IMG/VR virus record: IMGVR_UViG_3300034061_002761
Span: 1 to 41,798 of that record
DNA from: a virus
Length of the DNA stretch: 41,798 nt
Strand: one strand, 5' to 3'
In this document: piece after piece, positions 3-41,798 of the stretch
How the letters are laid out: each line of letters starts with the position of its first letter
Position numbering within the stretch: the stretch's first letter is position 1
Position numbers and translations under genes: made by a program
Notes under the pieces: generated by a model
The model's input: the letters and a program-made list of their open reading frames with translations, nothing else
Databases searched by the model: none
What the model was told of the DNA's origin: nothing

Positions 3-3000
3 AAGTTTTATTCGTCAACGAACTACTATGTCGAGTTTCGGCTGACGGCGAACAATCCAGACAACCTCACGCCGCACGGCCCGCCCAACACGCTGATCTC
101 CCCAACTCAGGTCACCATCCCCGGCACCGGCTACACCAATGGTCAGGTGGGGACGATCACGCTGCTGAAGCGCGCACTCACGGCGGCAGTCAGCACGGCG
201 ACCAGCGCGCAGGCACTGTCGTGGACGGCTTCGCAGTTGATGCAGTTGTCTGCCTCTGCTGCGGGAAAGATTGCCAGCATCGACATATTCAGCAAGGGGC
301 GGAACTACTTCTCCCCCCCCGTCATCGAGGTGCGAGGCGGCGGGGCGGGGTACGGCCTTTCTGTGCTGCCCGTTGTCGAGAATGGTCGCATCGAGTCGGT
401 GCAGATCATCGATCCGGGCCTTTCGTACACATCGGCTACGGAGTTGTACACAGCCTCTCGCGCAGCCCAACTGACGCCCGTCATGCGCCCGACCATGCGT
501 GGCACGTACCGCTGCGCATACCGATTCGCAGACCGCACCGACACGATTGTGAAGACGGTAACAGCGACCCTTGGCAACTCGTCAACGACGCTGACGCTTT
601 CGGACACCAGCGGCGTGGAGCCAGACATGGTGCTGGACTCGCCGTCGCTTCCATTCAACGCCCGCATCAAGAGCGTGAGTGGCGACGAGGTCGAGATCAA
701 CCAGCAGATCACGGGGCTTGCCGCCAACACGACGATCACTGTCAAGGTGCGTGATCTGACAAAGCCCATTGCCTACAGCGACCTGTCCCCAATCGTGGAT
801 GTGGATGCAGGACCGAATGACTCGCGAACGCATTCATCGGAACTGAAGTGGTTGCTCTCTGGAGTGCGGCCCCCAGCCCGTGCAGACCTCATCGAACTGT
901 GGCGCACGAGCGCAGACCAATCGCTGGTCTTCTATCGGATCGAGGCATACGGGATACCGTCTGACAGCGGCGTGACCATTGTTGGGACGGACACCCTGAC
1001 AGACGAAGAACTGTTCGATCCCGACAGGCCGTTCTATGCAGCGATGCCCGTCGTTCTGCCCAACGGTAACGTCAACGCCTATCGCTTCGGTCAGCCCCGC
1101 AGCGACATGTCCGTTGGGGTGGCGTTTCAGGACAGGCTCTGGATGGGCGTATCCACCAGCGGCGAGGGGGCCAACACGCTGTACTACAGCGAGTTTGACG
1201 AGTTTGAGAGCCTCCCCGATGTGAACGAACTGCCAATTCAGAACAACACCAAAAGCACAGACGTTCTCACTGCCCTCGTGCCGTTTGGGTCACTGCTGCT
1301 GGCGATGCAGCACACTCACACGTATGCGGTGCAATACAACACAGACCCCGCCATCGACGCCACGATCCAGATGCTCAGTCACCGTGGGTGCCTGCATCAG
1401 CGTGCGTGGGACATTCACGAAAACGTCCTCTACGCCGCAGACGAGTCTGGCATCTACTCCATGGCCCGCAACGGTGAGGTGCAGGACATTAGCCTGCCGA
1501 TTCGCAACTTCTTCGTTGGCGAGTTGATCGACTTCAGCAAGCGGGAGACGTTTTTCTTACAGGCGGACTCCCGCACCCACATCCTGCGGTTCTTCTGCAC
1601 CCTCACCTCGCAGGCAGCCGACACGCCGTCCATGGCGTTGTGCTACGACATTCAGGCGAAAACGTGGTGGACCGAGTCGTACCCCAACGGCATAACCTCT
1701 GCCTGCACTGGCAGGCCCGCCGCAGCCCGCATCAACACGATCCTGTTGGGGGCGGTGGACGGGAACCTGTATGAGATCGAAGGCGACAGCGACCACGCCA
1801 ATGACTGCCTTACGGACTGCTTTGTGGAAGAGGGCGGATCGGGCTACCGCGAGGCTCCCACGATCACGGTCCCCAACTGCGTTGGTGCGTCTGTTCATGG
1901 GGTGGTCAGCGAAGGGCGGCTTGTCGATGTGATCATCCAAAGCCCTGGCTGGCAGGCCAAGGGAGGTTTGGAACTCGCAACGGAAGATGGAAGGGTTCTC
2001 ACAACCAGAAGTACCGCCGACGCGAATGAAGACGGCAGGGCTATCGGCGGCGTCGAGTACTACCCAATCAAGTTGACCATCGGCCCGCCGGAACCCGGCG
2101 GAACGCAAGCCGTCGCCTACGCCAACTTCAGCGTGACCCCACGGGTTGTGCGTGAATGCACCGTGGCGCAGGGGGAATCGTTCGTCCGCCTCGATCCGGC
2201 CCGCACGGCGCAACTGCAACCGGAGTTCACTTCTCCGATTGCGCTAGAGAACGAGGGGCTATTGCTCACACAGAGCGGCCTGCCCATCACGACGGAGCCT
2301 CCTCCGGTCGAGATCGGAATGGAAGCCATCGGGGACTTCCTGCCGCTGAACGCCTTCGTCTCTCGCATAGACGGCAGGGACATTTATCTGGAACACCCGG
2401 ACGGCACACCGGCACTGGTCACCAATGGTGCGCAGCGCACGAACCAAACAGGAACGACAGCGGACTATCTGGAACTGGGCGGCACACAGATGACCGTCAC
2501 GTTCCGCAAGCCGTTCCGCATCCATATCCCCTTCCGCATGGCGACGGGGTACGCAGAGGTCGTGAACGAGAGCAACGCGCGTGGCGGCGGCGGGCTTGTG
2601 GACCGCTCCGTTTCGATTGTCTACACGCCCACGCAGGACGATAAGTACGTGGAGTTGATCGAGCGGTACAACGGTCGCGAGGAGATGCGGCCAAACCTCA
2701 TCCGCCGTGGCCGGGGTGGACCCGGCGGGTTCGTTCACCGCGAGGACTCCGCCAGCACTGTGCTGAACACGAGCCGCGAGGCATCGACGCTTGGGTTCGC
2801 AACTGGCGTGGCGAAGGCCAAGTTTGCCAGCCAAGCCAACTCCGATCTCACCGGCACCGACCAGCATCTCCAAGTCGAACTGTACGCGCGACCGGAGCAG
2901 GCCAGCCCGTGGAAGCGAACGAACTACTGGATTCCTGACGCGGCCATTCGCACCCCGCAGTCTTTCGCGCTGCACGGCATGACGGTCGAGGGGGTCATCG

Positions 3001-11304: not shown

Positions 11305-11628
11305 ATGCCAGCCAATTACAAAGTGCTGGGGCAGTCGGCCCCCGCCTCTAACACGCTGACCTCGCTGTACACGGTCCCTGCCTCCACGCAGGCATGTTGC
11401 TCGACCATCGCGATCTGCAACTTGGGTGTCAGTTGCACCTACCGGGTGGCGGTTCGCCCTGCGGGTGCCGCGATCAGCAACCAGCACTACCTCGTCTGGG
11501 ATGCCTCGGTTAACGCTGCCGACAGCGTACTGCTGACATTGGGCATTTCGTTGGCCGCGACAGATGTTGTCAGTGTGCAGGCCAGCGGCACCGTGGCGTT
11601 CAGCCTGTTTGGCTCGGAGATCACCTAA
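11305..11628 (+). CDS. Small beta-rich tail protein (107 aa)
   Basis: The sequence YKVLGQSAPASNTLTSLYTVP, followed by alternating hydrophobic strands (STIAICNLGVSCTYRVAVRP, LGISLAATDVVSVQASG), looks like a single beta-sandwich. Similar small proteins occur beside fibre genes in many phages, with no proven function. It starts one base after the preceding stop and overlaps the next gene by one base (TAATG). Confidence 0.75.
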   Translation: MPANYKVLGQSAPASNTLTSLYTVPASTQACCSTIAICNLGVSCTYRVAVRPAGAAISNQHYLVWDASVNAADSVLLTLGISLAATDVVSVQASGTVAFSLFGSEIT

Positions 11629-13274
11629 TGTCTGCGATCCAAGCGCAGGGCGGTGGGCGCGCCAGCAAGCGCAACGTCAACCAGACGGCATCAGCGTCAG
11701 CCAGCACAGCGGTGCCAGCACCGTGGGTGCGGCCAGCCGATTGGATCGCGCTGCCAGACGTTACCGGACTGCAACGGTTCGTGGGCATTCACCGAATTGA
11801 TCCAGAGGCGAACTTTGTCGCCCTCACTGCCGCAGGCGCATACACAGTGGATTGGGGCGACGGCACCACGACGAACCACGCCACCGGCACCACGGCGCAG
11901 CGGCAGTATGACTATTCCACAATCAGCAGCGCAGGCGAATCAACGCTTGGCTATCGCCATGTTCTGATTCAGGTGTACCCGCAATCCGGCCAGAATCTGA
12001 CCAGCCTTAATCTTCAAGTGCGACACAATCAATCTGGCATTTCCGCATACGCAACCGGGTGGCTCGACATTGCGATCAATAGCAGCAACCTCACCTCGCT
12101 GACGATCTCCAGTTCCACACTAGGACACCCATACCTACAGCAAGTCGCGATTGGTCAGCATGCGATTACCAATGCGACTTCCCTGTTCGCGTGGTGTCCA
12201 GCCCTGCAATCGGTGCCGCTGTTCAACACAGCAAACATCACCAACATGAGCAACATGTTTCAAAGTTGCTCCTCACTGCAATCGGTTCCGTTTTTCAACA
12301 CTGCGTCCTGCACGAACATGTCTGCCATGTTCGGATCGTGCCGTCGCCTGCTCTCTGTGCCGTCGTTCAGTACCGCGGCAGCGACGAACATGTCCTCAAT
12401 GTTCACTAACTGCATGTCGTTGCAGTCGGCTCCGTTTATGAACACCTCGGCAGCGACGAACATGTCCTCAATGTTCAACAACTGCGTGTCGCTGCAGTCG
12501 GTTCCGCACTACAACACGGCGGCCTGCACGAACATGCAATCAATGTTGTCAGGCTGCTATTCGCTGCTCACGGTGCCGCCGTTCAACACTGCGGCCTGCA
12601 CGAACATGAGTTCAATGTTCTTTGCTTCATCTGCGCTCACGACCGTCCCGTTTTTCAACACGGCAAACGTCACCAACATGGCTGGCATGTTTAACCAGTG
12701 CCACTCGCTGGTGTCGGTTCCGCTGTTCAGCACAGCAGCGGTTACGGACATGAGCAACATGTTTCGGCTGTGCTACTCGTTGACCACCGTTCCGCTGTTC
12801 AGCACAGCAGCCGCCCAGAACACCAGCAGCATGTTTTCTGGATGCACTGCACTGACCTCTGTTCCTCAGTTCAATCTCGCGGCCTGCACAAATGCGAACA
12901 ACATGTTTGTGGGTTGCACTGCGCTGGCCACGGTTCCGCTGTTTAACCTCTCGGCCTGCACGAACATGACCGCCCTGTTTAGCGGATGCACAGCACTGGC
13001 AAGCGTGCCTGCGCTCGTCACCTCCGCAGTGACGAGCGGAAACTTTGCGACGATGTTCGCCACATGCACCGCACTCTCCTCCGCGCCCCTGTCAGGCACC
13101 AACCAGAGCATCAGTTATTCGGGTTGCAAACTCAGCGGCACCGCGCTCAATGCGATCTACACGGGACTCTCGTCAAGCGGTGCTGGGAAAACGATCACGG
13201 TGACAGGAAACTACGGCACTGCCACACACACCACCTCTATAGCCACAGCCAAGGGGTGGACCGTAACGGTCTAG
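11628..13274 (+). CDS. Tail protein with BspA/DUF285-type leucine-rich repeats (548 aa)
   Basis: Residues about 50-180 look like a beta domain (ANFVALTAAGAYTVDWGDGT is the core of a PKD-like fold). Residues about 186-485 are roughly twelve tandem 24-residue repeats of the form MFxxCxSLxSVPxFNTAxxTNMSx, which is the DUF285/BspA-like repeat known from bacterial surface proteins. A separate C-terminal cap follows (SGTALNAIYTGLSSSGAG). The repeat face would form an elongated solenoid, well suited to binding a host surface molecule. Units differ mainly at solvent-exposed positions. The place among fibre genes supports a receptor-binding role, which is inferred. Confidence 0.8.
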   Translation: MSAIQAQGGGRASKRNVNQTASASASTAVPAPWVRPADWIALPDVTGLQRFVGIHRIDPEANFVALTAAGAYTVDWGDGTTTNHATGTTAQRQYDYSTISSAGESTLGYRHVLIQVYPQSGQNLTSLNLQVRHNQSGISAYATGWLDIAINSSNLTSLTISSSTLGHPYLQQVAIGQHAITNATSLFAWCPALQSVPLFNTANITNMSNMFQSCSSLQSVPFFNTASCTNMSAMFGSCRRLLSVPSFSTAAATNMSSMFTNCMSLQSAPFMNTSAATNMSSMFNNCVSLQSVPHYNTAACTNMQSMLSGCYSLLTVPPFNTAACTNMSSMFFASSALTTVPFFNTANVTNMAGMFNQCHSLVSVPLFSTAAVTDMSNMFRLCYSLTTVPLFSTAAAQNTSSMFSGCTALTSVPQFNLAACTNANNMFVGCTALATVPLFNLSACTNMTALFSGCTALASVPALVTSAVTSGNFATMFATCTALSSAPLSGTNQSISYSGCKLSGTALNAIYTGLSSSGAGKTITVTGNYGTATHTTSIATAKGWTVTV

Positions 13275-22250: not shown

Positions 22251-22744
22251 TGCTGCACATCACGCCAGACACTACGGTTGTGATCATCGGTCCACCGGGC
22301 AGCGGCAAGACCACCGTGGGCGAGTTGCTGGCAGAGCAGAGCGCACTGCCCCTGTACTCGACCGACCGATACTTGGGCTACGGTCACATCAAAGCCCTGT
22401 ACTGGGTCATGCAGGAGATCGGTGACGTTGGCTGGATCGTGGAAGGAATGATCGGCTACCGCCTGCTGCGCAAGCGAAAGCAGTTGGGCATGCCAGCACC
22501 GGACATCGTGATCCAACTAGACGCCGCTGACGCCGACATACTGGAGGCGTACCGGCAGCGGAACCGGCACTGCAACATCAACCACCTCCGCAACTTCTGC
22601 AAAGCCCACGAGACGGTGCTGAAGGAGTATGTCCTGCTCGACGGCGACATGCCCAAGATTTGGATTCACTGCAAGAGCAGGCAGGCTTGTCACCTAATCG
22701 GCGGCGGTCCTTCCGGCACCGCCAACAACGATTCGTCAATGTAG
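22250..22744 (+). CDS. P-loop kinase-like protein (164 aa)
   Basis: Walker A motif GPPGSGKT at residues 14-21, preceded by the strand TTVVII, and a general adenylate/shikimate-kinase-like size. The segment PDIVIQLDAADADILEAYRQR is consistent with the kinase core plus lid region. The substrate cannot be told. GTG start overlapping the previous stop by one base (TAGTG), with GGAGG a few bases before. The 3' end overlaps the 3' end of the convergent integrase by 55 bases. It is the last gene of the late block. Confidence 0.75.
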   Translation: MLHITPDTTVVIIGPPGSGKTTVGELLAEQSALPLYSTDRYLGYGHIKALYWVMQEIGDVGWIVEGMIGYRLLRKRKQLGMPAPDIVIQLDAADADILEAYRQRNRHCNINHLRNFCKAHETVLKEYVLLDGDMPKIWIHCKSRQACHLIGGGPSGTANNDSSM

Positions 22745-23520
22745 TGACGCACCGTCGTGGCACCGTCGCCATGCTGAAGGTACGCCCTCGCGCTCCCCGG
22801 CGTGGCCCGCTCCTTCATGGTGGCGCAAGAGCGGCGGAGAAACTTCATCGTGCCGCTGAACTTGTGTCGCTCCCGAAACGCGGCCATGCAAAGGAATGCC
22901 CTGCGGCGGGTGAGGAACCACCGGAACAACGTGCCGTCAGGAGAGGCGTCCGCCAGTTGCTTGGCCTGCTGGACTGCGTACTCCGACAGCGGACGAATGA
23001 ACGTCTTCCCTGTCTTGTGAGCAGTGCCAACCACTACGCAATCACGTATCTGATCGATGTGCAACTCATGCACATCTTGAAATCGCAGGCCACTGTCATA
23101 CGCAATCGTGATCCACGCTGGGAGAAAGTCGCAGACACGCTTCTTGTGACGCACGCTGATCACTGCCTCGTCTTGCTCCGCACACTCAAGCATTCGCGAC
23201 AGTGTTGGCATCGCCCACGCTTGCGTGGGTTTCGGCGCAGCCCTGACTCTCATCACTCGCAGCGGAGGCTCGTCCGTCAATCGTTCTTCAAATGCATACC
23301 GCCAGAGCGTAAGTGCTTCACGGCGAATGTTTTGCTTCGTCGTAGAAGTCAGGCTTGACAGGCTGACGAGCAGCCGGTTCAAATGTTCAGCCTGCAAATC
23401 GGAAACGGATTCGATTCCGGCTTCAGTCATCTTCCGCACGGTGCGGTTCAGGGACTCGCGGTAGCGGCTACCGCAATCCCGACCGCCCACATAGGCAGCA
23501 AGGAGGTCTGTCAGTTTCAT
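22690..23520 (-). CDS. int: Tyrosine site-specific recombinase (integrase)
   Basis: Catalyses integration of the phage at the att site next to its start. Counted from the MKLTDLL start, the catalytic set is Arg146 (SGLRFQDV), Lys169 or nearby (TAHKTGK), Arg229 (MKFLRRSCAT), His250 (YLQHGDG) and nucleophile Tyr260 (VRHYIDE). The first His of the HxxR box is replaced by Lys226, a known variation. An N-terminal SAM-like core-binding domain (about 1-90) is present. The frame stays open to an ATG at 23592, adding 24 poorly folded residues, so the start is uncertain. It is 276 aa, shorter than lambda-type enzymes, with no clear arm-binding domain. It overlaps the convergent kinase gene by 55 bases. 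Confidence 0.9.
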   Translation of the reverse strand: MKLTDLLAAYVGGRDCGSRYRESLNRTVRKMTEAGIESVSDLQAEHLNRLLVSLSSLTSTTKQNIRREALTLWRYAFEERLTDEPPLRVMRVRAAPKPTQAWAMPTLSRMLECAEQDEAVISVRHKKRVCDFLPAWITIAYDSGLRFQDVHELHIDQIRDCVVVGTAHKTGKTFIRPLSEYAVQQAKQLADASPDGTLFRWFLTRRRAFLCMAAFRERHKFSGTMKFLRRSCATMKERATPGSARAYLQHGDGATTVRHYIDESLLAVPEGPPPIR

Positions 23521-23619
23521 CGTTGTGCATCGGGGACCGCCTAATACATAGGGTTGCACCCCCCTTGCGCAGGTCAACCTGTTCGTAACCATATTCCCCC
23601 CATTTGAAGGATCAGTTTT
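23521..23619. promoter_or_regulatory. Divergent control region between integrase and recombination operon
   Basis: Ninety-nine bases separate the favoured integrase start from the GTG of the RecE-like gene. I see a GAAGGA ribosome site at 23606-23611, eight bases before that GTG. On the minus strand a TTGACC (23572-23577) faces a weak TATGTA (23545-23550), but the 21-base spacing is poor. Runs of G/C (ccccccttgcgc) are present, with no clear palindromic operator. No repressor gene is recognised nearby. Confidence 0.4.
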
Positions 23620-24534
23620 GTGACGCCTTTAACGAGCGCGCAAACTGATGAAGGGCAGCAGCACCGGCTTCATAAGCCGGGTGTCGCCGGTTCAAATCCG
23701 GCCGCCGCTACTACTCATCAGATTTGCCACACCCCAGCGGAGGAGTACCACCGCTGGCCCGAAGTTTCTTGCAGCCAGTTGAAGGCTCTTCGTGAGTCCC
23801 CGCTGGCATTCTACTTCCGCTTCATAGCACGAAGCGCACCCCCCCACAAGAGTGACGCTCTTGCATACGGGACGCTCCTCCATTCGTGGGCGGAAATCGG
23901 TGAGTCGGAGTTCTGGCCCAAGGTCGTTGTTGCCCCGGACACTTTGGTAACGGCGACCGGCGCACTCTCCAAGAAGGCTGACGAGTGGCTTGCCAGACTT
24001 GAGCCGGGGGTGATCCCGATCTCCCCAGCCGACCACGCCAAGTTGCGTGAGCAGACCAAGCGGCTGCTCGACAACCCGGATGTGGTCGAGATTCTGGAAG
24101 CCAGTACGGATGCAGAGTTCAACATCCGTACTACGTGGAACGGGCATGCAGTGCGTTGCCGTGTGGACGGCTGTACTCCCGCGTTCTTCTACGATTGGAA
24201 GACCACTCGCGATCTGAACCCGATGCGAGATTGGTGGCGCAGTGCCAAGCAGTTTGGATACCACCTCCAATCTGCCTTCTATCAGCACTGTGCCGAAGTG
24301 GCTGGATGGCCTCGCCATCGCATGCGCTTCATCGTGACCAGCACTGTCTGGCCCTACGACAACGCTGTTGGCGTATTGCCCGAAGAGTGGTGTGAAGCGG
24401 GGAGGAAGCAGTGCATTCGTCTTCTTGACGAACTGCGCACCCGCATGGATTTCGATCAGTGGGCGAACGTCAATCGCTCCACTGAAGTTCAAGAGTTCCC
24501 GTTCCCGGCCTATGCATTGAAAGGAGAAGAGTGA
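23620..24534 (+). CDS. RecE-like PD-(D/E)XK nuclease (DUF3799-like), N-terminus encoded by the att site
   Basis: Resembles the PD-(D/E)XK nuclease of phage RecE/exonuclease VIII type that resects double-strand ends for a partner annealing protein, here the ERF gene directly downstream. Visible are the family start (YHRWPEVSCSQLKALRESP), the LAYGTLLHSWAE helix with its His, and the core DGCTPAFFYDWKTTRDLNP near residues 183-200 with the DxK pair. GTG start with GAAGGA eight bases before it. No other ATG lies in frame before the conserved part. Residues about 14-30 (HRLHKPGVAGSNPA) are simply the tRNA fragment in translation, so integration must replace this gene's 5' end. Confidence 0.85.
   Translation: MTPLTSAQTDEGQQHRLHKPGVAGSNPAAATTHQICHTPAEEYHRWPEVSCSQLKALRESPLAFYFRFIARSAPPHKSDALAYGTLLHSWAEIGESEFWPKVVVAPDTLVTATGALSKKADEWLARLEPGVIPISPADHAKLREQTKRLLDNPDVVEILEASTDAEFNIRTTWNGHAVRCRVDGCTPAFFYDWKTTRDLNPMRDWWRSAKQFGYHLQSAFYQHCAEVAGWPRHRMRFIVTSTVWPYDNAVGVLPEEWCEAGRKQCIRLLDELRTRMDFDQWANVNRSTEVQEFPFPAYALKGEE
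23659..23710 (+). other. attP: Phage attachment site: 3' part of a tRNA-Met(CAT) gene
   Basis: Bases 23664-23680 form a perfect anticodon arm (CCGGC-TTCATAA-GCCGG, anticodon CAT), 23686-23702 a perfect T arm (GCCGG-TTCAAAT-CCGGC), and 23703-23710 the 3' acceptor strand plus discriminator (CGCCGCTA). No CCA is encoded. The upstream 26 bases do not complete the tRNA: only four of seven acceptor pairs can form, and the D arm is irregular. A tRNA 3' fragment next to an integrase is the classic signature of attP at a tRNA gene. CAT could be elongator Met or tRNA-Ile2; the stem is not the GGG/CCC initiator type. Confidence 0.85.
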
Positions 24535-27234: not shown

Positions 27235-27257
27235 TCCGGCGCGCACTGGAACAACGC

Positions 27258-27268
27258 CGCTCTTGACA
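27258..27268 (+). promoter_or_regulatory. CGCTCTTGACA promoter-like motif, copy A
   Basis: First of three copies of an identical 11-base motif, all between genes and all pointing downstream. It contains a consensus TTGACA. No good TATAAT-like hexamer is seen at 16-18 bases; the nearest is TAAGTG at 27283. The position fits initiation near 27295, ahead of a hairpin terminator. Confidence 0.5.
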
Positions 27269-27289
27269 AGCATTTAGGTTTCTAAGTGA

Positions 27290-27558
27290 AGCCCCAACTG
27301 GCACTCGCCCCACGCCCCGCCGACGCACAATTCCGGCGCGCCGTGGAAGAGAAACGAAAAGGCAGTTGAGGCAGGCGACACCCAGCGGAGTGACCCGGTT
27401 AACAGGGACCGGGCAACCGCGCTGGCTACGCGATTGCGGTGGTAAATCGCACACAGGCTCTGTTGCCAAAGACTGCCACCCAGCGGTGGGAAAGACCAGA
27501 CGGCTACGGCCAGAGGGAGAAACGACACCGCTTGCCACGCGCCATAAACGTGGCTTTT
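27290..27558 (+). ncRNA. Possible small structured RNA between copy A and a terminator
   Basis: The 485 bases 27235-27719 hold no convincing protein. Several stems can be drawn: a long-range pairing of GACCGGGCAACC (about 27408-27419) with GGTTGCCCCGGTC downstream at about 27564-27576, a local hairpin CCACC-CAGC-GGTGG near 27475-27489, and GCGATT/AATCGC near 27430-27450. A hairpin ending in TTTT lies at 27534-27558. A promoter-like motif upstream and a terminator downstream would define an RNA of roughly 270 bases. The long pairing extends past the terminator, so boundaries are uncertain. No known RNA family is recognised. Confidence 0.3.
27534..27558 (+). terminator. Hairpin terminator, six-pair stem with TTTT
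   Basis: GCCACG (27534-27539) pairs with CGTGGC (27549-27554) around a nine-base loop, followed by TTTTG. It lies between the helicase stop and the next gene's promoter motif, as expected for an independent transcript end. Stem strength is moderate and the T run short. Confidence 0.5.
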
Positions 27559-27663
27559 GTGCCGGGTTGCCCCGGTCTGTGCTGATGTATCTCTGTCAGT
27601 GCCAGAGCCAGAGCAATCTCCATGAGCGTCCGAATGATCTTCGACCGAAAAGAAAATCGTTGT

Positions 27664-27674
27664 CGCTCTTGACA
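27664..27674 (+). promoter_or_regulatory. CGCTCTTGACA promoter-like motif, copy B
   Basis: Identical 11-mer to copy A, 46 bases before the ATG of the zinc-ribbon gene at 27720, the same distance as copy C has to its gene (45 bases). Upstream bases TTGT match copy C's TTGC. No standard -10 box is evident. Confidence 0.55.
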
Positions 27675-27719
27675 CGCAAATACAACGAGAGAAAGGCAAG
27701 TTAACCCAGAGGATTACCC

Positions 27720-30661: not shown

Positions 30662-30891
30662 TCGTCTGGATTCTGGTTGCCGTCGCCGTCGCCATCCTCC
30701 TCTGGCCGTCGAAGCCGCCCGCCCTCCCCTTCTCCCTGCCGGGGAAGCCTACCGGCCCGGACTACATGGAGTCAGTGCGTTGCCTTCAGGTGGTGACGCA
30801 GCGGCTGGCCGCAACCCAGCGGCTGAACGAGGCGGAGCGGAAGTCGCTCGACGCCATCATCCTCGCTCTCGCATCGGGGAGCGACGAATGA
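30658..30891 (+). CDS. Small membrane-anchored protein (77 aa)
   Basis: The N-terminal segment MIVWILVAVAVAILLWPS is one transmembrane helix; the rest is soluble and helical (YMESVRCLQVVTQRLAATQ). ATGA overlaps at both ends couple it to its neighbours. The size and layout fit a holin- or spanin-like part of a lysis module, though no family is recognised. Confidence 0.65.
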   Translation: MIVWILVAVAVAILLWPSKPPALPFSLPGKPTGPDYMESVRCLQVVTQRLAATQRLNEAERKSLDAIILALASGSDE

Positions 30892-32758: not shown

Positions 32759-33274
32759 ATGCCCCGCCGACTCACGCAGAAGCAGCAGGCGCAAGCCGAG
32801 GCTGCTATGCGATTCATACAGCCGACTGTTGCGGTGTTCGTGCGCCGCAATCCAGACCTTCGTCCATCCATTAGGCGAGTGGACATGGAGAGCGTGGCCC
32901 AGTACGCAGTGTGCATGGCTGCGTTCACGTATGACCCGGAGAAGTCGCAGCCGACCACCTACTTCAGCAGTGCCATCCGCCACGCACTGTACCGGGCTGT
33001 GTTGAATCAGCAGAAGTTGGATGGCCGGTACATTCCGACCGAAAGACTGTTTGAGCCGGAACCCAATCGGCACCGTACCCGCCAAGAGATGCGGGCGATG
33101 CGTGCGCTGCGGAGACTGTCGGCGCAGGACCGCACACTGCTGGAGGACAGACTGATCGAGCAAGTCACGCTGGAGCAGTTGTCTTCCGAGCAGCGGTGCG
33201 ATCCGCGCACGATAGGAAAGAGAGTGCGACGGGCAATCGACCGTCTACGTGCGGCACAGGACGATCTGCCCTGA
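32759..33274 (+). CDS. Sigma-70-like RNA polymerase sigma factor (171 aa)
   Basis: Residues about 40-82 look like sigma region 2 (FTYDPEKSQPTTYFSSAIRHALYRAV; the YDP...TTYF...IR core is typical). Residues about 115-165 look like region 4 (LSAQDRTLLEDRLIEQVTLEQ, TIGKRVRRAIDRLRAAQ). It would direct host RNA polymerase to phage promoters. It has no region 1.1 and is shorter than primary sigma factors. It ends inside the convergent serine recombinase gene, overlapping by 30 bases. A direct DNA-binding regulator using only region 4 is an alternative. Confidence 0.75.
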   Translation: MPRRLTQKQQAQAEAAMRFIQPTVAVFVRRNPDLRPSIRRVDMESVAQYAVCMAAFTYDPEKSQPTTYFSSAIRHALYRAVLNQQKLDGRYIPTERLFEPEPNRHRTRQEMRAMRALRRLSAQDRTLLEDRLIEQVTLEQLSSEQRCDPRTIGKRVRRAIDRLRAAQDDLP

Positions 33275-34855: not shown

Positions 34856-34930
34856 TCAGTTCTTGGGTGTGGTAATCAACAGGACAATGAACACTGCCGC
34901 CGCGATGTAGGTAAGGGTGTCAGCCTGCAT
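34856..34930 (-). CDS. Micropeptide with one membrane helix (24 aa)
   Basis: MQADTLTYIAAAVFIVLLITTPKN is exactly one transmembrane helix with short polar ends. GGGAGGT lies eight bases before ATG. It overlaps the end of the VWA gene by eleven bases and ends 12 bases before the 177-aa gene. Could be a membrane anchor or regulator of the MoxR/VWA pair. It is too short to test by similarity. Confidence 0.45.
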   Translation of the reverse strand: MQADTLTYIAAAVFIVLLITTPKN

Positions 34931-36170
34931 AGGTCGGCACCTCCCTTGTGAGGTCGATGACCTTCGCCCACGACGGTGGAGTCGAGTAACTCGACCGCTT
35001 GACCAAGGCCACGACGAGCCTCGCCCTTGTTGGGGTGGACGGCCAATCAGTCTCGCCATCGGTGACAAGGACGATGCAATCGGGACGGTGCTGCGTGTCC
35101 TCCTCCTCGATAGCCTTCGTCATGTCGGTGCCACCGTACCCCTTGAACTCAAACTGCGAGACGCTGGAGATGCGTCGTGCCGATTGACACACGTAGTCGA
35201 AAGCGATCACGCGGGGACGCTGCACCCGACGCAGTCCCTGTGCAATCGTGGTCATGGCCTTCGACTCCATGCCCTGCATGGACCCGGAGGTGTCGATGAT
35301 GATCGAACACTCCGGTGCCAACCGCACGTAGCCCCTGCGTCGAGGCTGATCCTCCTGCTGCCTGCGATTGAGGCGGCGGTAGGTGTACTCCTCCACCCCC
35401 AGCGGCGAGGCGACAGAGCGTGACACGATGGACCGCAGTTCATCGAAGGGATTGGGCTGCGGATGGAGCCTGCACTTGAGACTCTTGCGAATCTCCCCCG
35501 GCACAGTGCCAGGGCGGCAGGATTCCAGTGCCTCGATCTTCTTCTCCGCCTCTTGCAGTGCATGCTCGACCATGGCCTGCTCGACTGCGGATGACTGCTT
35601 CTCGTACTCACGTGGCACCCCATCGCTGGCACTGCCCGCATCCATGGGGTCGAGCGGGTTGCCCTTCCCACGCTGCGGTTGTTCCGGCACGTGCTGGAAT
35701 AGCAGGCCGTAGTACTGCTCGACCGTCATGCCATGTACCAATCCCGGTACATGGAGGAACTTCGTCTGCGTCCCCGGAATCAAGCCGTCGATGCGGATGA
35801 TGCCCGAAGGTTCATGCACATCGTAGTGGCGGGACAGCATCTGCTGGATCACGAGGTCAGCGGCAAGGTTCCACGTGTACCGCTCCTGCTCCCCGTGCTG
35901 CGGCACTGCAAGTTTGAACCGCTTGCAGTGGGACAGCACGATGTGCATGACCTCGTGAAGCAGGCAGTACGCCACCTCCTGCGGGGTCAGGCTTTCCATG
36001 AACTCCGGGTTGCAGTACAGGCGGTTCGACTGATCGACAGCCATTGTCGGAACCTCCTGCGTCTCGACGGTACGCATCATCGAGAACACGTGAGTGAGGT
36101 ACGGAACCCAAGACCGCAGCCGCAGTTTGGCTTTGGTCAGCATTCGCTGGACTGATGTGAGAGTATTCAA
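34920..36170 (-). CDS. Metallopeptidase plus VWA protein (DUF2201-like, 416 aa)
   Basis: The N-terminal half carries the zinc motif HEVMH at residues 72-76 (YCLLHEVMHIVLSHC). The C-terminal half is a von Willebrand A domain with MIDAS motif DTSGSM near residues 292-297 and a later VTDGE. Proteins with both domains (DUF2201_N plus VWA-like) pair with MoxR-type ATPases, encoded here just upstream with an ATGA overlap. The MIDAS residues are intact, so metal-dependent binding of a partner is expected. The substrate is unknown. Confidence 0.85.
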   Translation of the reverse strand: MNTLTSVQRMLTKAKLRLRSWVPYLTHVFSMMRTVETQEVPTMAVDQSNRLYCNPEFMESLTPQEVAYCLLHEVMHIVLSHCKRFKLAVPQHGEQERYTWNLAADLVIQQMLSRHYDVHEPSGIIRIDGLIPGTQTKFLHVPGLVHGMTVEQYYGLLFQHVPEQPQRGKGNPLDPMDAGSASDGVPREYEKQSSAVEQAMVEHALQEAEKKIEALESCRPGTVPGEIRKSLKCRLHPQPNPFDELRSIVSRSVASPLGVEEYTYRRLNRRQQEDQPRRRGYVRLAPECSIIIDTSGSMQGMESKAMTTIAQGLRRVQRPRVIAFDYVCQSARRISSVSQFEFKGYGGTDMTKAIEEEDTQHRPDCIVLVTDGETDWPSTPTRARLVVALVKRSSYSTPPSWAKVIDLTREVPTYAG

Positions 36171-37261
36171 GCGACACCCCCAATCTGCGAAACGAGTTTC
36201 CCGTACCGGGCCAGCAACTTCTTCGGCACCCGGTAGTCCGGGTACGTGTTGGTAACGTCGCTCAACACCGGGCCGACGCAGTCGAGCATGCCGCGTTCGC
36301 CCATCTCGACCAGCGTCTCGACCGCATTGTCCAGACGCTTGGACGAGTGGTCATCGGCCAGCGTTTCCAGAATCCCCACGGGCAGGAAGATCAACTGATC
36401 GACACGGTCACCGTCGTAGTCGATGGTTGCCTTGCGATCCACGATCTCCGCCGGATCGTAGAGATCACGGGCGGCGAGGTACTGGAGCAACATGCCCGCT
36501 GCATTGGCACCGACCATGCCACTCGCCAGTTGACTGATCACCTCGCCGCCAGCCTTCACCTTGTCCGCACCGGCAAGGCACTTGGCAAGGTTGAACCACT
36601 GGCGAAGCGAAGCGAACGCCCTCTCGCCTTCGGGGATGACCTTCGTCTCCCGAATAGCGGGGTGCCGCTGATTCAGGTAGCCGATGATGCGAGTCCACTT
36701 GGGGAGGTAAGTGGAGAAGTCACCGACAATCGGGAAGCCTGTCGGAAGTGGGAAATTCCCACCGTTCTTCATCCCTTCCAGCCACGAATCGAAGGGGGTT
36801 TCCCAATCGTGGTGGTACAGGCGGTTGCACAGACTTGCCTCCAGTGGGCTGGAGTTGGGTGCCATCTCCGGGGGATTGGCGATCATCACGACAATCGTTG
36901 AGGGATGCAACGCAAGCGACCCAATGCGCCGCTCGTTCGCAAGCGAAAGCATCGGAGGACGCATCGGCTGCGGGGCAGTGGTCGCCTCGTCCAGCACGAG
37001 CATGCCCTTCGGCTTGGTCAACTGGTGCAGCCAATCCATGTACCGCATGGTGACCACGCCCGTCTTCTTGTCGATGTCAGGGACACCGCCAATGTCTTCG
37101 GGCATGTGCATCGAGGGGATGAATACCTTCAGGTAGTCATACCCCAGTGCCTTGAACAACGCCTCAAACCACGCCGTCTTGGCAACTCCCGTTGTCCCCC
37201 AAGCGATCCCGGTCACGCCGCACTGGATCGCAATCATCAACGCCGCATTCAAGCAGTACAT
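36167..37261 (-). CDS. MoxR-type AAA+ ATPase (364 aa)
   Basis: Walker A GTTGVAKT at residues 22-29, Walker B MLVLDEATT with Asp91-Glu92, sensor 1 VVMIANPPE (about 130) and an arginine-rich region later (SLCNRLYHHDWETP). The layout is that of MoxR/RavA-type remodelling ATPases, which act on targets presented by a VWA partner, here the next gene. ATG 37261 with AAAGGAG nine bases before it; the frame extends upstream but without a better start. It lies 69 bases after the stop of the 298-aa gene. Confidence 0.85.
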   Translation of the reverse strand: MYCLNAALMIAIQCGVTGIAWGTTGVAKTAWFEALFKALGYDYLKVFIPSMHMPEDIGGVPDIDKKTGVVTMRYMDWLHQLTKPKGMLVLDEATTAPQPMRPPMLSLANERRIGSLALHPSTIVVMIANPPEMAPNSSPLEASLCNRLYHHDWETPFDSWLEGMKNGGNFPLPTGFPIVGDFSTYLPKWTRIIGYLNQRHPAIRETKVIPEGERAFASLRQWFNLAKCLAGADKVKAGGEVISQLASGMVGANAAGMLLQYLAARDLYDPAEIVDRKATIDYDGDRVDQLIFLPVGILETLADDHSSKRLDNAVETLVEMGERGMLDCVGPVLSDVTNTYPDYRVPKKLLARYGKLVSQIGGVA

Positions 37262-37330
37262 CGTACTGTCTCCTTTCGTGAAGTGAACGCCACCTAGCCA
37301 AGATGGCGGGAAGTAAACCCAATCAACCAA

Positions 37331-38227
37331 TCAACCAGCGAACGCACTCAACGCAACCGATCCGATCTTCTCCTTCGCATAGGCCGCAGCCTTTGCGATG
37401 TGTGCGAAACCCTTGCCGAGCAACGCCTTGTTGTGTTCAAGGGTTTCATACGTGGACACCCACTGCTCCAGCCGTGTCTGCTGCCCGTTGGACCGGGCCT
37501 TCGCTCCACGGTGGGACATGTCATCCGCCTCTTCGATCTGCCCGTTGAACACAGCCATGCTGCGGCGTGTCAGTTCATCCGACACGTGCTTGACCAAGGC
37601 AGCGTTCACCGTGGGGTTGAACCGCACGGTCTGCATCACGACGCCATGCCTACCCAAGGCATCGGCCACGGTGGTGTACGAATCCAACTTGTCTTCGGGC
37701 AGATACCACACCACGCCCTCGTCCCGCAGGAGAAAGCCATGCTGCGCTTTAACCAGACCAGTGATCGCATTGGTCAGGTCATTGGCGGACAGGAACGTGC
37801 ATGCCTCACGCCAGTAGCGGTCGGCCTGACGCTGGATCGCCGCCCGATTCTTGTGAATCTCCGGGCAGGCAGTGGCGTCAACGTCGAGAATCTCCACGGC
37901 AAACGAGCCGTCGCCCTGCTTGCACACACCCATGGAGAACAGGAACGGGAGGTCATTGCGTGTCTTGCCACGCACGAACCGCCGCAACTCCACGCCCACG
38001 GCATCGGCTCTGCCCGACAGACCGAACGGCTTGACCCTCTCGCCACCACCCACGCCGTATGCGGTGACAATATCCGCCGCAGATTTCTGCAACGCAGCGT
38101 AGTGATCGACGGGCGGCAGCAGACTTGCCATGCCCACCGCATCGAACGCTTTCTCCGCCGCATCACGGGGCATACGCTTGCTGCCCCAGAAAACAATCAC
38201 GTGTTCCGAACTCAATGACTTAGCCAT
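37331..38227 (-). CDS. Hypothetical protein at head of the MoxR/VWA operon (298 aa)
   Basis: Start set at ATG 38227, with AAGGAG six bases before it; the frame continues upstream through the promoter region and is not coding there. Mixed alpha/beta sequence (EHVIVFWGSKRMPRDAAEKA, DLPFLFSMGVCKQGDGSFAV, FLLRDEGVVWYLPEDKLDSY, then YETLEHNKALLGKGFAHIA). No family is confidently recognised. Its place upstream of the ATPase suggests a substrate or adaptor for it. Confidence 0.7.
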   Translation of the reverse strand: MAKSLSSEHVIVFWGSKRMPRDAAEKAFDAVGMASLLPPVDHYAALQKSAADIVTAYGVGGGERVKPFGLSGRADAVGVELRRFVRGKTRNDLPFLFSMGVCKQGDGSFAVEILDVDATACPEIHKNRAAIQRQADRYWREACTFLSANDLTNAITGLVKAQHGFLLRDEGVVWYLPEDKLDSYTTVADALGRHGVVMQTVRFNPTVNAALVKHVSDELTRRSMAVFNGQIEEADDMSHRGAKARSNGQQTRLEQWVSTYETLEHNKALLGKGFAHIAKAAAYAKEKIGSVALSAFAG

Positions 38228-38271: not shown

Positions 38272-38282
38272 TGTCAAGAGCG
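38272..38282 (-). promoter_or_regulatory. CGCTCTTGACA promoter-like motif, copy C
   Basis: Same 11-mer as copies A and B, on the minus strand 45 bases before the ATG at 38227. The preceding bases GTTGC match copy B's GTTGT. It probably drives the 38227-33245 operon. No good -10 box is visible. Confidence 0.55.
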
Positions 38283-38304
38283 GCAACGCACCGCTCACCC
38301 ATAC

Positions 38305-38332
38305 CCTTCTCCCCCCCGGCAAAAATCCGGGG
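38305..38332 (-). promoter_or_regulatory. G7 motif, copy 1, with CCCCGG hairpin
   Basis: CGGGGGGGAGAAGG (38305-38318 on the minus strand) preceded by CCCCGG (38327-38332) that can pair with CCGGGG (38314-38319) around a seven-base loop. It points at the gene at 38227. Bases after the motif read GGTATGGGTGAG, close to copy 3. Confidence 0.65.
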
Positions 38333-38342
38333 AGGGAAAGGC

Positions 38343-38383
38343 AAAAGCCCCGGAACCAGCGGCAAAACCACTGGTTCCGGGGC
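38343..38383 (-). terminator. Strong terminator, perfect 13-bp stem
   Basis: GCCCCGGAACCAG (38347-38359) and CTGGTTCCGGGGC (38371-38383) form a perfect 13-pair stem with an 11-base loop; on the minus strand it is followed by TTTT. It ends the operon that starts at 40662. It also lies just upstream of motif copies 1 and C, so it insulates the two minus-strand operons. Confidence 0.85.
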
Positions 38384-38408
38384 TACACTGCACGACACTG
38401 TGACCGCA

Positions 38409-38666
38409 CTAATCGTTCTTAAATTCACGAACGATGTCGGTGATCGTTTCCCAGTTGCTCTTCACGCGATCCACCAACGGCGCGCCCACTGAAAAGAACT
38501 TCTGGAAGACGCGACCAACCTCGTCCCACTGGTTGGTATCAATGTCTGGTCCGTTGTCGATCAGGTCACGGGCAACCTCTGCCAGATTGCAGTTCCAGTT
38601 CCAGCGGTTGCAGGCTTCCGCAGCCCACGCCTCCCACTGTGTGTAGGTACGCATCAACTTCGCCAC
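38409..38666 (-). CDS. Hypothetical small protein (85 aa)
   Basis: GTG start with AAAGGAGA six bases before it. Aromatic, helical: RTYTQWEAWAAEACNRWNWN, DTNQWDEVGRVFQKFF. Five Trp in 85 residues is notable. Unknown family. Last gene before the terminator. Confidence 0.6.
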   Translation of the reverse strand: MAKLMRTYTQWEAWAAEACNRWNWNCNLAEVARDLIDNGPDIDTNQWDEVGRVFQKFFSVGAPLVDRVKSNWETITDIVREFKND

Positions 38667-38678
38667 GAGACTCTCCTT

Positions 38679-38876
38679 TCAGTGAGGAATCACAACCATC
38701 TGCTCGATCTTGCACAGCCTGTCGGCCAAACGCTTGGCCTCGTCATACAGGCGTTCACCATCCGGCACATCACAGTTCCCCCAGATGAAGTCACTGTCAT
38801 TCAACAACTCTTCGACCGCGCCCTTCAGCAGGAAGAACTCCTGCGGTGTGAGCGTGAGGACGATGGGCTTCTGCAT
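38679..38876 (-). CDS. Hypothetical small protein (65 aa)
   Basis: Helical (LTPQEFFLLKGAVEELLND, ERLYDEAKRLADRLCKIEQ). ATG 38876 overlaps the previous stop by one base (TGATG) with GAGGAA before it. Unknown family. Confidence 0.55.
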   Translation of the reverse strand: MQKPIVLTLTPQEFFLLKGAVEELLNDSDFIWGNCDVPDGERLYDEAKRLADRLCKIEQMVVIPH

Positions 38877-39073
38877 CACTTCCTCGCTGTCTTCTGTAGC
38901 GACACCGTCATCCTGTACCGCAGACCGCCCACCTCATCAACCAACTCTTTGACTTGGTAGTAATGCGGGTCTTCGTATTCCAATGCCATCCATGCGCCAA
39001 GCAACGCATTGTGTGCGCGAACAACGCAATCTTCCGCCTCCACCAAACGCCTGCGTAGTGGTGTCTTGGTCAT
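38876..39073 (-). CDS. Hypothetical small helical protein (65 aa)
   Basis: Two helices (RLVEAEDCVVRAHNALLGA, PHYYQVKELVDEVGGLRYR). It starts with GGAGGGTGAGTGATG, a start region very like those at 39934 and 40011, and overlaps the previous stop by one base. Unknown family. Confidence 0.55.
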   Translation of the reverse strand: MTKTPLRRRLVEAEDCVVRAHNALLGAWMALEYEDPHYYQVKELVDEVGGLRYRMTVSLQKTARK

Positions 39074-39408
39074 CACTCACCCTCCACATCTGGGAAAACA
39101 CAATCCAACGCGGGGACAAACCCATTGCCCTCGCTTGCCTCGCCCTGACGCACCGACTTGCACTTGCGAATCTGCCCAAGCAGATCGCCCTCCATGCACT
39201 GCATGGTGAACTCCACCCTGCGGTTGTAGTCCTCCCAATCCATGACCTCCGCTAGCAGGAGGGACACAATGTCCACCAACTGGTACTCGTTCTGCGTTAA
39301 GCAGCCGACAGCATGTAGCAACTGCGGCCTGCGAGTCATAACGGCAGCGCGCACCAAGCCAACCATCGGTGTTGCCTGTTCAGCAGGCGGATGACCAACG
39401 CGACTCAT
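39073..39408 (-). CDS. Hypothetical protein (111 aa)
   Basis: Helical centre (VGLVRAAVMTRRPQLLHAVG, IVSLLLAEVMDWEDYNRRVE) with two Cys later. ATG 39408 overlaps the previous stop (TAATG), so it belongs to the same message. Unknown family. Confidence 0.6.
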   Translation of the reverse strand: MSRVGHPPAEQATPMVGLVRAAVMTRRPQLLHAVGCLTQNEYQLVDIVSLLLAEVMDWEDYNRRVEFTMQCMEGDLLGQIRKCKSVRQGEASEGNGFVPALDCVFPDVEGE

Positions 39409-39581
39409 TACTCATCTCCCTCTAAATCCACCAGAGATCGCCACAAGATCACGACTTGCAGTCCATCGATCTCCGGTTCGTGAATGTCCAGTGCCGTGCG
39501 CTCCGCAAGGTGCTGGACTAACTGATCCCTCGGCACATCTCCTTCGTGCGTGACAACCACTACTCCCCGGTAGGTGGGCAT
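39408..39581 (-). CDS. Hypothetical small protein (57 aa)
   Basis: Reads MPTYRGVVVVTHEGDVPRDQ, then LVQHLAERTALDIHEPE, and ends VDLEGDE. The strand-helix pattern is protein-like. GAGGGGAG lies ahead of ATG, and the TAA overlaps the next ATG by one base. Overlaps the preceding gene by 22 bases. Unknown family. Confidence 0.55.
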   Translation of the reverse strand: MPTYRGVVVVTHEGDVPRDQLVQHLAERTALDIHEPEIDGLQVVILWRSLVDLEGDE

Positions 39582-39934
39582 GGGATGTTTCTCCCCTCTG
39601 CCTTGGCGATTGCCAGATTCGCAGCCCGAATACTTGGGGCTTCGATGTAATCGGGGTAGTCGCCTTCCGCTTCTTCCTTGGTGCAGCGGATAACAAAATT
39701 CCCTTCATTGTCATACTCGCCAGCATCAAGAAGTCCCTTGATTGCAGCCAGTAAATCCGGGGCAGCGGAAATCAGCGGTGCATTACTGTGGTGGCAGTAA
39801 GCAACGTGGCCCCCGATGTCCTCGTCAACAACTTCAACCGCCAGCCAATCGCTGTTGTGTGCCACCTGATCGGCCATGTGGTCGCCATCTGCCGTGTAGT
39901 CGATTCTCCACGGTCCCGGTGTATGCGTACTCAT
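39560..39934 (-). CDS. Small phage protein of HTPGPW...ISAAPDLLAA type (124 aa)
   Basis: STHTPGPWRIDYTADGD and NAPLISAAPDLLAAIKGLL form a pattern widespread in small proteins of tailed phages, of unknown function. AAAGGATGTGAGTG precedes ATG 39934. It belongs to the minus-strand small-gene operon. Confidence 0.75.
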   Translation of the reverse strand: MSTHTPGPWRIDYTADGDHMADQVAHNSDWLAVEVVDEDIGGHVAYCHHSNAPLISAAPDLLAAIKGLLDAGEYDNEGNFVIRCTKEEAEGDYPDYIEAPSIRAANLAIAKAEGRNIPCPPTGE

Positions 39935-40011
39935 CACTCACATCCTTTCTTCAAGAGTTCAAGAACCACACGAATCACGAAGAACAACAACTCCATGTCA
40001 CGTTCATTCAT
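39934..40011 (-). CDS. Micropeptide (25 aa)
   Basis: MNERDMELLFFVIRVVLELL then KKGCE. AAGGAGG lies six bases before ATG, part of a CATCACAACAAGGAG leader motif, and the TGA overlaps the next ATG. The hydrophobic stretch could be a membrane helix. The excellent start site suggests it is translated, either for its own product or to couple translation of the 124-aa gene. Confidence 0.45.
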   Translation of the reverse strand: MNERDMELLFFVIRVVLELLKKGCE

Positions 40012-40018
40012 CACTCAC

Positions 40019-40033
40019 CTCCTTGTTGTGATG
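40019..40033 (-). promoter_or_regulatory. CATCACAACAAGGAG leader motif, second copy
   Basis: Same element as at 38234. A TTGACA (40038-40043, minus) lies just upstream, only four bases away, so it is not a standard promoter spacing. Confidence 0.45.
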
Positions 40034-40098
40034 GGTATGTCAATAGCAACGGACGCAGCACACACCATGCGTACTGCGCCCGTTGCCCACACTGGAAA

Positions 40099-40662
40099 TC
40101 ACTTGATCTCGCACGTGCCGGGACGCACCTCGACGGTCTTTGCCTTCACGAACTGGGCAAGCAAAGCCTTCGCCAGTTCCTCGTAGTCGATCTCTGCCGC
40201 AACGTCAGCGACGTTGATCTCTTCGGCCAGATCAGACATGGACACATGGGAAGCGATCTCGGAGTAGTCGATCTCCAGATCACTGGTGTCGATCTCATGC
40301 GCCAGATCAGAAACGTCGAGGCTCGACGCGATCTCGGAGTAGTCGATGTCAATGGCAGCGACCACCTTGTCGTAGTCCAACTCGATGTAGCCAGCCACCT
40401 TGTCCGCGATCTCCTCTTGATCCAGACCATTGACCACATCGTTAACGTCGATCTCCTCCGCCACATCGGTGGCACTGATCGTCACCTTCTTCGCGATCTC
40501 CTGCTCAATCTCGGACAGGTCGAGCAGATCGCACACCACCTCGGAAACGCGGGTGATGTTGAGATGCCCAGCGATGTGCTTGCACACCTCGTCAAAAGGC
40601 AGCAGCGCAGCAACGCGGCAGGCAATCACGTGAACGCAGCGGTCAAAGAACTTGGCAAACAT
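40099..40662 (-). CDS. Acidic protein of repeated IDYxEIAxxxxxSDLA units (187 aa)
   Basis: Residues about 60-170 repeat short helical units: ISATDVAEEIDVNDV, LDYDKVVAA, IDYSEIASS, VSDLAHEID, IDYSEIASH, MSDLAEEIN, IDYEELAKAL. The protein is rich in Asp/Glu with few Arg. The first 35 residues are Cys-containing and helical (CVHVIACRVAALLPFDEVC). Acidic repeat proteins can mimic DNA and block host defence enzymes; that is a hypothesis only. Similar SDLA/DYxxLA repeats occur in some phage proteins. GGGAG seven bases before ATG. Confidence 0.7.
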   Translation of the reverse strand: MFAKFFDRCVHVIACRVAALLPFDEVCKHIAGHLNITRVSEVVCDLLDLSEIEQEIAKKVTISATDVAEEIDVNDVVNGLDQEEIADKVAGYIELDYDKVVAAIDIDYSEIASSLDVSDLAHEIDTSDLEIDYSEIASHVSMSDLAEEINVADVAAEIDYEELAKALLAQFVKAKTVEVRPGTCEIK

Positions 40663-40738
40663 GTGAGAACTCCCAGTGTGTGACGGGCCGATTGGCGTCG
40701 AGCAACTGCTGCCCGCCGCTCCGACCCGGCACCTAACT

Positions 40739-40752
40739 CCTTCTCCCCCCCG
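40739..40752 (-). promoter_or_regulatory. G7 motif, copy 2
   Basis: CGGGGGGGAGAAGG on the minus strand, pointing at the gene starting at 40662, about 75 bases away. Preceded by CCTCCTTACCCGGC, partly matching the CCCTCCCCGG arm of copies 1 and 4. Confidence 0.6.
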
Positions 40753-40925
40753 CCGACCGCCGCCGGGTAAGGAGGCGCGGGCGCGTTACCGCGTTACGTC
40801 GCGCGCGAAGTCAGCCCTCATTGCAGCCCTGACTCTGCGCGCATGTCGTTCGCTCGATCTTTCAGCGGGCTATTGCGATTTGCCCGCAAGCCACAAGGCA
40901 TGACGCGAAGTGGTGGTGCTGGCAG

Positions 40926-40939
40926 CGGGGGGGAGAAGG
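40926..40939 (+). promoter_or_regulatory. G7 motif, copy 3
   Basis: CGGGGGGGAGAAGG on the plus strand followed by GATGGGGTGAGG, very close to copy 1. It points at the gene at 40991, about 50 bases away. No pairing arm is seen upstream here. Confidence 0.65.
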
Positions 40940-40967
40940 GATGGGGTGAGGCTGCTGCTGGAGCGGC

Positions 40968-40982
40968 CATCCCAACAAGGAG
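40968..40982 (+). promoter_or_regulatory. CATCCCAACAAGGAG leader motif, third copy
   Basis: Third copy of the leader that ends in the ribosome-binding sequence, eight bases before ATG 40991. Confidence 0.5.
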
Positions 40983-40990
40983 TTGTTCCC

Positions 40991-41674
40991 ATGTTCGTTT
41001 CCCTCACGATGGTCAGCGCGAATCGCAAGGTTGGTCCGATCCCGGTCAGCACGACGGAGAAAGACTCTTGCCCCAAGGAGTGTTCGCTCAAGGACACCGA
41101 TTGCTACGCCCGGTTTGGTCCGCTCGGCATGCACTGGAGCAAGGTGGGAGAGGGCAAGCGTGGCTGGCAGTGGACGTTGTTCTGCCGTGCCGTTGCCAAG
41201 TTCCCCAAGTTCCAACTCTGGCGGCACAATCAAGCGGGCGATCTTCCGCAGGATGACAACGGCAAGATCGACGCCGACAAGTGCAGCGAATTGTCCGCTG
41301 CCTCTCGACACACGAGGGGCTGGACATACACGCACTACGATCCGACCGACTCGCACAATGCTGCGGTCATTCGGAAGATGAACAGTGTCCGCGGACTGAC
41401 GGTCAATCTGTCAGCGGACACGGTGCAACAGGCGGACGAGTACCACGCTCTTGGCATCGCCCCGGTCGTGGTGATTCTGCCCGAAGATGCCCCGGCCATG
41501 GGCAACAAGACTCCCGGTGGCCTGCCGATTGTCACGTGTCCCGCACAGACAACGGACGGCATGGCCTGCAATCAGTGCAAGTTGTGCTACGTGAAAGACC
41601 GCAAGTCGATTGTCGGCTTTCTCGCTCACGGTGCTGCAAGCAAGCGGCTGTCTCGCTCACTGCGGGCAGTCTGA
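40991..41674 (+). CDS. Gp88-like cysteine-rich phage protein (227 aa)
   Basis: ATG 40991 with AAGGAG eight bases before it. The N-terminus SANRKVGPIPVSTTEKDSCP, then CYARFGPLGMHW, and RHNQAGDLPQ match the Gp88/DUF7227 pattern known from actinophages and other phages. A Cys-rich motif near residues 199-207 (ACNQCKLCYVKD) could bind a metal or an Fe-S cluster. The biochemical role is unknown. Followed by a terminator. Confidence 0.75.
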   Translation: MFVSLTMVSANRKVGPIPVSTTEKDSCPKECSLKDTDCYARFGPLGMHWSKVGEGKRGWQWTLFCRAVAKFPKFQLWRHNQAGDLPQDDNGKIDADKCSELSAASRHTRGWTYTHYDPTDSHNAAVIRKMNSVRGLTVNLSADTVQQADEYHALGIAPVVVILPEDAPAMGNKTPGGLPIVTCPAQTTDGMACNQCKLCYVKDRKSIVGFLAHGAASKRLSRSLRAV

Positions 41675-41689
41675 CGCAGCCCTGACACG

Positions 41690-41733
41690 ACGCCCCGTGT
41701 TCTTCACCCGAAGTTCACGGGGCGTTTGTGTTT
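41690..41733 (+). terminator. Terminator, ten-pair stem
   Basis: ACGCCCCGTG (41690-41699) pairs with CACGGGGCGT (41716-41725) around a 16-base loop; then TTGTGTTTC. It ends the 40991 transcript. The T run is broken but the stem is strong. Confidence 0.75.
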
Positions 41734-41766
41734 CTCGCGTGTAGTTCATGCGAGTACGCCAACCCT

Positions 41767-41798
41767 CCCCGGTCGCTGTTGACCGGGGGGGAGAAAGG
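41767..41798 (+). promoter_or_regulatory. G7 motif, copy 4, with hairpin, cut by window end
   Basis: CGGGGGGGAGAAAGG (41784-41798), preceded by CCCCGGTC (41767-41774) that pairs with GACCGGGG (41781-41788) around six bases. It presumably points at a gene just past the window. Confidence 0.55.

Follow-up and report, generated by a model that had tools for sequence, protein, structure and literature searches.

The window, that is the whole stretch of DNA analysed, is a 41.8-kb phage contig, and four transcription units can be recognised in its last 3.5 kb. On the minus strand, an operon starts with a gene encoding a 298-aa protein (37331..38227) and continues through genes for a MoxR-like ATPase (36167-37330) and a DUF2201/VWA protein (34920-36170); the DUF2201/VWA and MoxR-like ATPase pair (34920-38227(-)) has a remote likeness to N4 gp24 and matching N4-type neighbours. 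A second minus-strand operon starts at 40662 and ends at an intrinsic terminator of 18 pairs (38346..38384, minus). Its first gene (40099..40662) encodes an acidic, repetitive protein of 187 aa, which matches no family and is built of repeated segments of the type I-D-x-S-E-I-A/D-L-A-x-E-I. This operon diverges from a plus-strand gene of the DUF7227 family (40991..41674; PF23872, E 5.7e-81), which is followed by a terminator-like hairpin (41690..41725, plus; fold z-score -5.7) that was not among the sites of a consensus terminator scan. At the head of each of the four units lies one copy of a G-rich motif, CGGGGGGGAGAAGG, present in the contig as three exact copies and one copy with a single change.

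Copy 1 (core 38305-38318, with its extension 38296..38318, minus) reads CGGGGGGGAGAAGG-GTATG-GGTG and sits between the 18-pair terminator and the ATG of the first gene behind it, at 38227, which is 77 nt on. Copies 2 and 3 share the 328-bp gap between the diverging genes starting at 40662 and 40991. Copy 2 (core 40739-40752, with extension 40730..40752, minus) reads CGGGGGGGAGAAGG-AGTTA-GGTG and is followed after 76 nt by the ATG at 40662; copy 3 (core 40926-40939, with extension 40926..40948, plus) reads CGGGGGGGAGAAGG-GATGG-GGTG, and the ATG at 40991 is 51 nt on. Copy 4 (41784..41798, plus; one-change match 41784-41797) lies 58 nt after the terminator-like hairpin, has the sequence CGGGGGGGAGAAAGG and ends with the last base of the contig, 41798; its change looks like one added A. 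An earlier note on this DNA had listed four copies at these places with exactly seven G in each, and this was confirmed for all four. It had also reported sequence in common after copies 1 and 3. These two copies indeed have GGGTATGGGTGAG / GGGATGGGGTGAG in common, in register and without gaps, and the GGTG extends to copy 2. Over 23 bases, an ungapped alignment of the three complete copies consists of 14 identical positions, five variable ones and then GGTG, giving the extended consensus CGGGGGGGAGAAGG-RNNNR-GGTG. Copies 1 and 3 further have in common CAACAAGGAG, the ribosome-site end of the leader.

With at most one mismatch, four matches to the motif were found against 0.03 expected, and four were reached in none of 100 dinucleotide shuffles. 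Allowing two mismatches added two matches, at 307-320(-) and 30728-30741(-), both within coding DNA. Seven runs of at least seven G are present in the window: four are the motif copies and the remaining three, at 320(-), 23845(-) and 26153(-), lie inside predicted genes. A matrix built from the copies returned no further good site in the contig, the next best scoring 14.8 against 33-36. As a control, the commonest 13-mer was counted in shuffled DNA; it was present at three copies in 7 of 60 shuffles and at four in none. Three exact copies of some 13-mer chosen post hoc are therefore only mildly unusual, and the case for the motif rests on its own count and on its position rather than on 13-mer repetition. 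Another repeated 14-mer, CATGTTCGTGCAGG, was set aside as most of its copies come from the DUF285 repeats of a gene located among the tail genes (11628-13274(+)).

Non-coding DNA makes up about 5% of the contig, an approximation obtained with a simple codon-based gene finder to which the integrase and sigma ORFs were added, and all four copies lie within it, between genes as the earlier note had described. At one mismatch no copy was found inside a gene. The structural-gene arm carries none, and all four are within the non-structural right arm. The three copies that could be tested for orientation, copies 1-3, are all in the sense orientation to the gene ahead, as had been claimed; for copy 4, whose gene ahead lies beyond the contig end, that claim is unproved. 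The anatomy, with four unit heads occupied and none of the copies in genes or in the structural arm, thus agrees with the suggestion that the copies control a phage regulon and are oriented with its transcription; their function as such is a proposal. Within the contig, the motif passed the refutation test named in the earlier note, a scan for equal density in genes or for random orientation.

In a blind scan for words repeated in the non-coding DNA, two distinct families of 11-mers emerged of which every copy is non-coding: CGGGGGGGAGA, which belongs to the G7 motif and has four copies, and CGCTCTTGACA, which has three. The second word occurs exactly at 27258-27268(+), 27664-27674(+) and 38272-38282(-), always in sense, and two of its copies lie 45 and 44 nt before the starts at 27720 and 38227. 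It contains a perfect -35 hexamer with no -10 and, apart from a one-base gap, is similar to the boxA antitermination signal, GYTCTTTAANA (PMC5725501). Two copies flank a 485-nt gap (27235-27719) that is possibly a non-coding RNA gene; it had no Rfam match, and its fold z of about -1.6 in sense and -2.4 in antisense is at best modest.

Elsewhere in the contig, a tyrosine-integrase-like gene (22690-23592(-)) adjoins a tRNA-like sequence with a CAT anticodon (23644-23710(+)), which scored 29.9 bits with Rfam and was not reported by ARAGORN. This sequence is likely an attP derived from a tRNA gene of the host; when it was used to search for the host, identity reached no more than 85-88%, in two phyla. 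The proteins scanned included no recognisable terminase or capsid protein. The contig is therefore probably incomplete, and a polymerase or a repressor may lie outside it.

The earlier note had described a hairpin before copies 1 and 4 and a fit to G-quadruplex spacing. In the pairing analysis the hairpin is clear at both places, copy 1 being the right arm of an inverted repeat at 38305..38343 (minus) and copy 4 that of an inverted repeat at 41764..41798 (plus), each with the left arm CCCTCCCCGG. It is not general: of random upstream stretches, 0.45% paired at least as well as copies 1 and 4 do, whereas copy 2 was equalled by 3.2% and copy 3 by 75%, so that pairing is strong in two copies, weak in copy 2 and absent from copy 3. 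Hairpins directly after GGTG were no better than those of shuffles (fractions 0.15, 0.39 and 0.07). The canonical quadruplex pattern (four runs of at least G3, loops of 1-7) is matched by copies 1 and 3, as the earlier note had it; copy 2 fails and copy 4 is truncated. The same pattern also turns up four more times, each time within a predicted gene, and in shuffles it was found 1.6 times on average and 7 times at most. Because neither structure occurs in all copies, the common feature is the linear sequence, and the quadruplex and hairpin readings are weaker than that of a transcription-control site.

We put at about even the chance that the G7 element controls transcription in the non-structural arm, as a phage-specific site of promoter or operator class whose action depends on its orientation. 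The sequence is new, and the kind of site, a repeated phage control site, is already known. With a terminator before copy 1, a terminator-like hairpin before copy 4 and diverging operons around copies 2 and 3, promoters are expected where the copies lie. The hairpin of copy 1 is separated by 3 nt from the stem of the terminator before it, and its presence as a whole in the transcript of its own operon would thus need a promoter in or before the terminator; as that transcript can hardly contain the hairpin, a site acting at the DNA level is favoured over RNA. The block is also linear and strand-specific, with 14 + 4 identical bases in 23. Against a promoter counts the spacing, a 14-bp block plus GGTG being unlike a -35/-10 pair. 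The evidence comes from four copies, of which one is incomplete and two, copies 2 and 3, share one gap and are not fully independent, and the sequence leaves the mechanism undecided among promoter, operator and leader RNA. We infer that the element is read as DNA and acts on transcription. With one copy at the head of each transcription unit of the non-structural right arm, a phage regulator would recognise the duplex CGGGGGGGAGAAGG-N5-GGTG in one direction, and this one-direction recognition would co-ordinate the units headed by the motif. The regulator could be an ECF-like sigma factor that the contig encodes, an immunity-type repressor, or a phage polymerase whose gene lies outside the contig.

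The ECF-like sigma-70 family factor, of 171 aa, is encoded at 32759..33274 (plus) and was recognised by NCBIfam TIGR02937 with 47.7 bits against a cut-off of 42.9. This ORF is absent from the output of the codon-based gene finder. It matched RpoE of structure 2q1z (E 2.8e-4, residues 21-165), its matches to Pfam region-4 models were below the cut-offs, and no match was found in the phage collection. Its AlphaFold model was too poor for use (pLDDT 57), and Foldseek listed several sigma chains, none of them significant. That this factor is the reader of the motif is a hypothesis. Sigma-70 consensus promoters were found nowhere in the contig against 9.0 in shuffles, which, with a sigma factor encoded, speaks for the phage-specific control site; across eight control loci their number varied between 0 and roughly threefold the expectation, and their absence from the whole contig could simply mean that the host uses other promoters. 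Promoters of the sigma-70 family have two conserved elements about 16-18 bp apart. The motif does not have this spacing, its 14-bp block being followed by GGTG after 5 bp. The sigma gene is preceded at 32707 by the word GGGGGAGAA, which is indistinguishable from chance, as this 9-mer occurs 7 times in the window, 3 of them outside the four copies. We regard as rather unlikely the reading in which CGGGGGGGAGAAGG-N5-GGTG is a G-rich promoter class distinct from known -35/-10 promoters and recognised by the ECF-like sigma factor or by a phage polymerase not seen here; if true, the class would define a private phage regulon in a genome devoid of host sigma-70 consensus promoters.

A possible, distinctly less probable alternative to the transcription-control site is that the motif acts in the leader RNA, as a G-rich 5'-UTR element of the quadruplex, hairpin or antitermination type through which translation or elongation of the downstream operon would be regulated. 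The 51-77 nt that separate the copies from the start codons are within leader range, a quadruplex is compatible with copies 1 and 3, and copies 1, 2 and 4 pair with an upstream arm more strongly than random upstream DNA (fractions 0.0045, 0.032 and 0.0045, respectively). However, no single structure is common to the four copies, the hairpin of copy 1 abuts the preceding terminator, and Rfam gave no real match. All three complete copies contain AGAAGG-N6-GTG, resembling a ribosome site with a start codon, yet the frames opened at GTG yield unrelated peptides, and the similarity of the DUF7227 relatives to the protein begins no earlier than the ATG at 40991 or one residue later. It is improbable that the copies have no function and arose by chance or as remnants of a duplicated leader in a GC-rich genome: the ribosome-site leader end common to copies 1 and 3 is what a duplicated leader would leave, and some 13-mer reaches three copies in shuffles at the frequency given above, but the motif itself is observed four times against an expectation of 0.03, its position and orientation are non-random and the flanks are otherwise mostly dissimilar. 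Slightly less probable again is a role in DNA processing (as a replication origin, in recombination or packaging, or at a module boundary) with no part in gene control, since, even if G-rich asymmetric sites and inverted repeats serve DNA processing in some phages and the contig ends exactly on a copy, an end at a G7 repeat also has assembly explanations and the four copies are dispersed, each at a unit head and in sense where this can be tested.

By analogy, a transcription-control site of this form would in its working come closest to a strand-specific phage promoter or to the repressor sites of cluster A phages, which are asymmetric and oriented with transcription. The operators and stoperators of cluster A mycobacteriophages, which are L5-type repressor sites, are short, lack symmetry and lie in promoter regions and between genes, and their orientation correlates with transcription (PMC9283540). 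The G7 motif is likewise asymmetric and repeated, its orientation follows transcription in copies 1-3, and the phage also has an integrase-like gene. In contrast, its sequence is different, there are four copies where L5 has more than twenty, and the many sites known from cluster A, including those inside operons, have no counterpart here, where the motif is confined to unit heads in the last 3.5 kb of a possibly incomplete contig. No immunity-type repressor was recognised among the proteins scanned. The start-associated sequences of cluster K mycobacteriophages, SAS and ESAS, are asymmetric, G-rich and repeated, occur only in the non-structural arm and have one orientation to genes, ESAS adding an imperfect inverted repeat (PMC3203893). 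The G7 motif resembles SAS in asymmetry, G-richness, repetition, confinement to the non-structural arm and single orientation. However, SAS occupies the position of the ribosome site, 3-7 bp from start codons (PMC3203893). The G7 copies are farther off, at 77, 76 and 51 nt, with a separate ribosome site nearer to each gene, and these distances rule out identity with the cluster K start-associated sequence. The early promoters of N4 employ hairpins (PMC4496689). With phage-specific promoters, among them those of phage sigma factors and single-subunit polymerases as well as the N4 hairpin promoters, the motif has in common a conserved, strand-specific block of about 23 bp, present once per unit, in a phage that encodes a sigma factor; it differs from them in having no -35/-10 spacing and, at copy 3, no hairpin. 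Among the proteins scanned, no phage polymerase was found.

The scan of IMG/VR for relatives used three proteins from the right arm and two from the structural arm, as well as three DNA patterns. Relatives emerged for the DUF7227 protein alone, in six contigs at 62-71% identity. The motif was present in none of the six; the DNA upstream of their DUF7227 genes differs, several having TTGAC...TATAAT-like sequences. A protein of the copy-1 operon used as a query gave no match in the phage or GTDB searches, and no phage with more than three genes in common was found in any of the searches. The 15-mer CGGGGGGGAGAAGGR occurred once each in 20 IMG/VR contigs, 18 times inside predicted ORFs, and none of the IMG/VR records held a second exact copy; the extended consensus was found in three GTDB contigs with no link to the phage studied here. 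The IMG/VR and GTDB searches thus returned no related phage carrying the motif. Two unrelated DUF7227 contigs (L005 and L009) have intergenic palindromes of their own, AAGTCNTT...AANGACTT, beside tracts of G6-G7.

If the G7 element is a promoter or an operator, it would define a private regulon in a phage for which the searched collections contain no close relative. The G-rich site and the phage sigma factor would then form a directly testable pair. The motif also illustrates how, in uncultured phages for which standard promoter models return no site, transcription units can be marked by words that recur exclusively in non-coding DNA.
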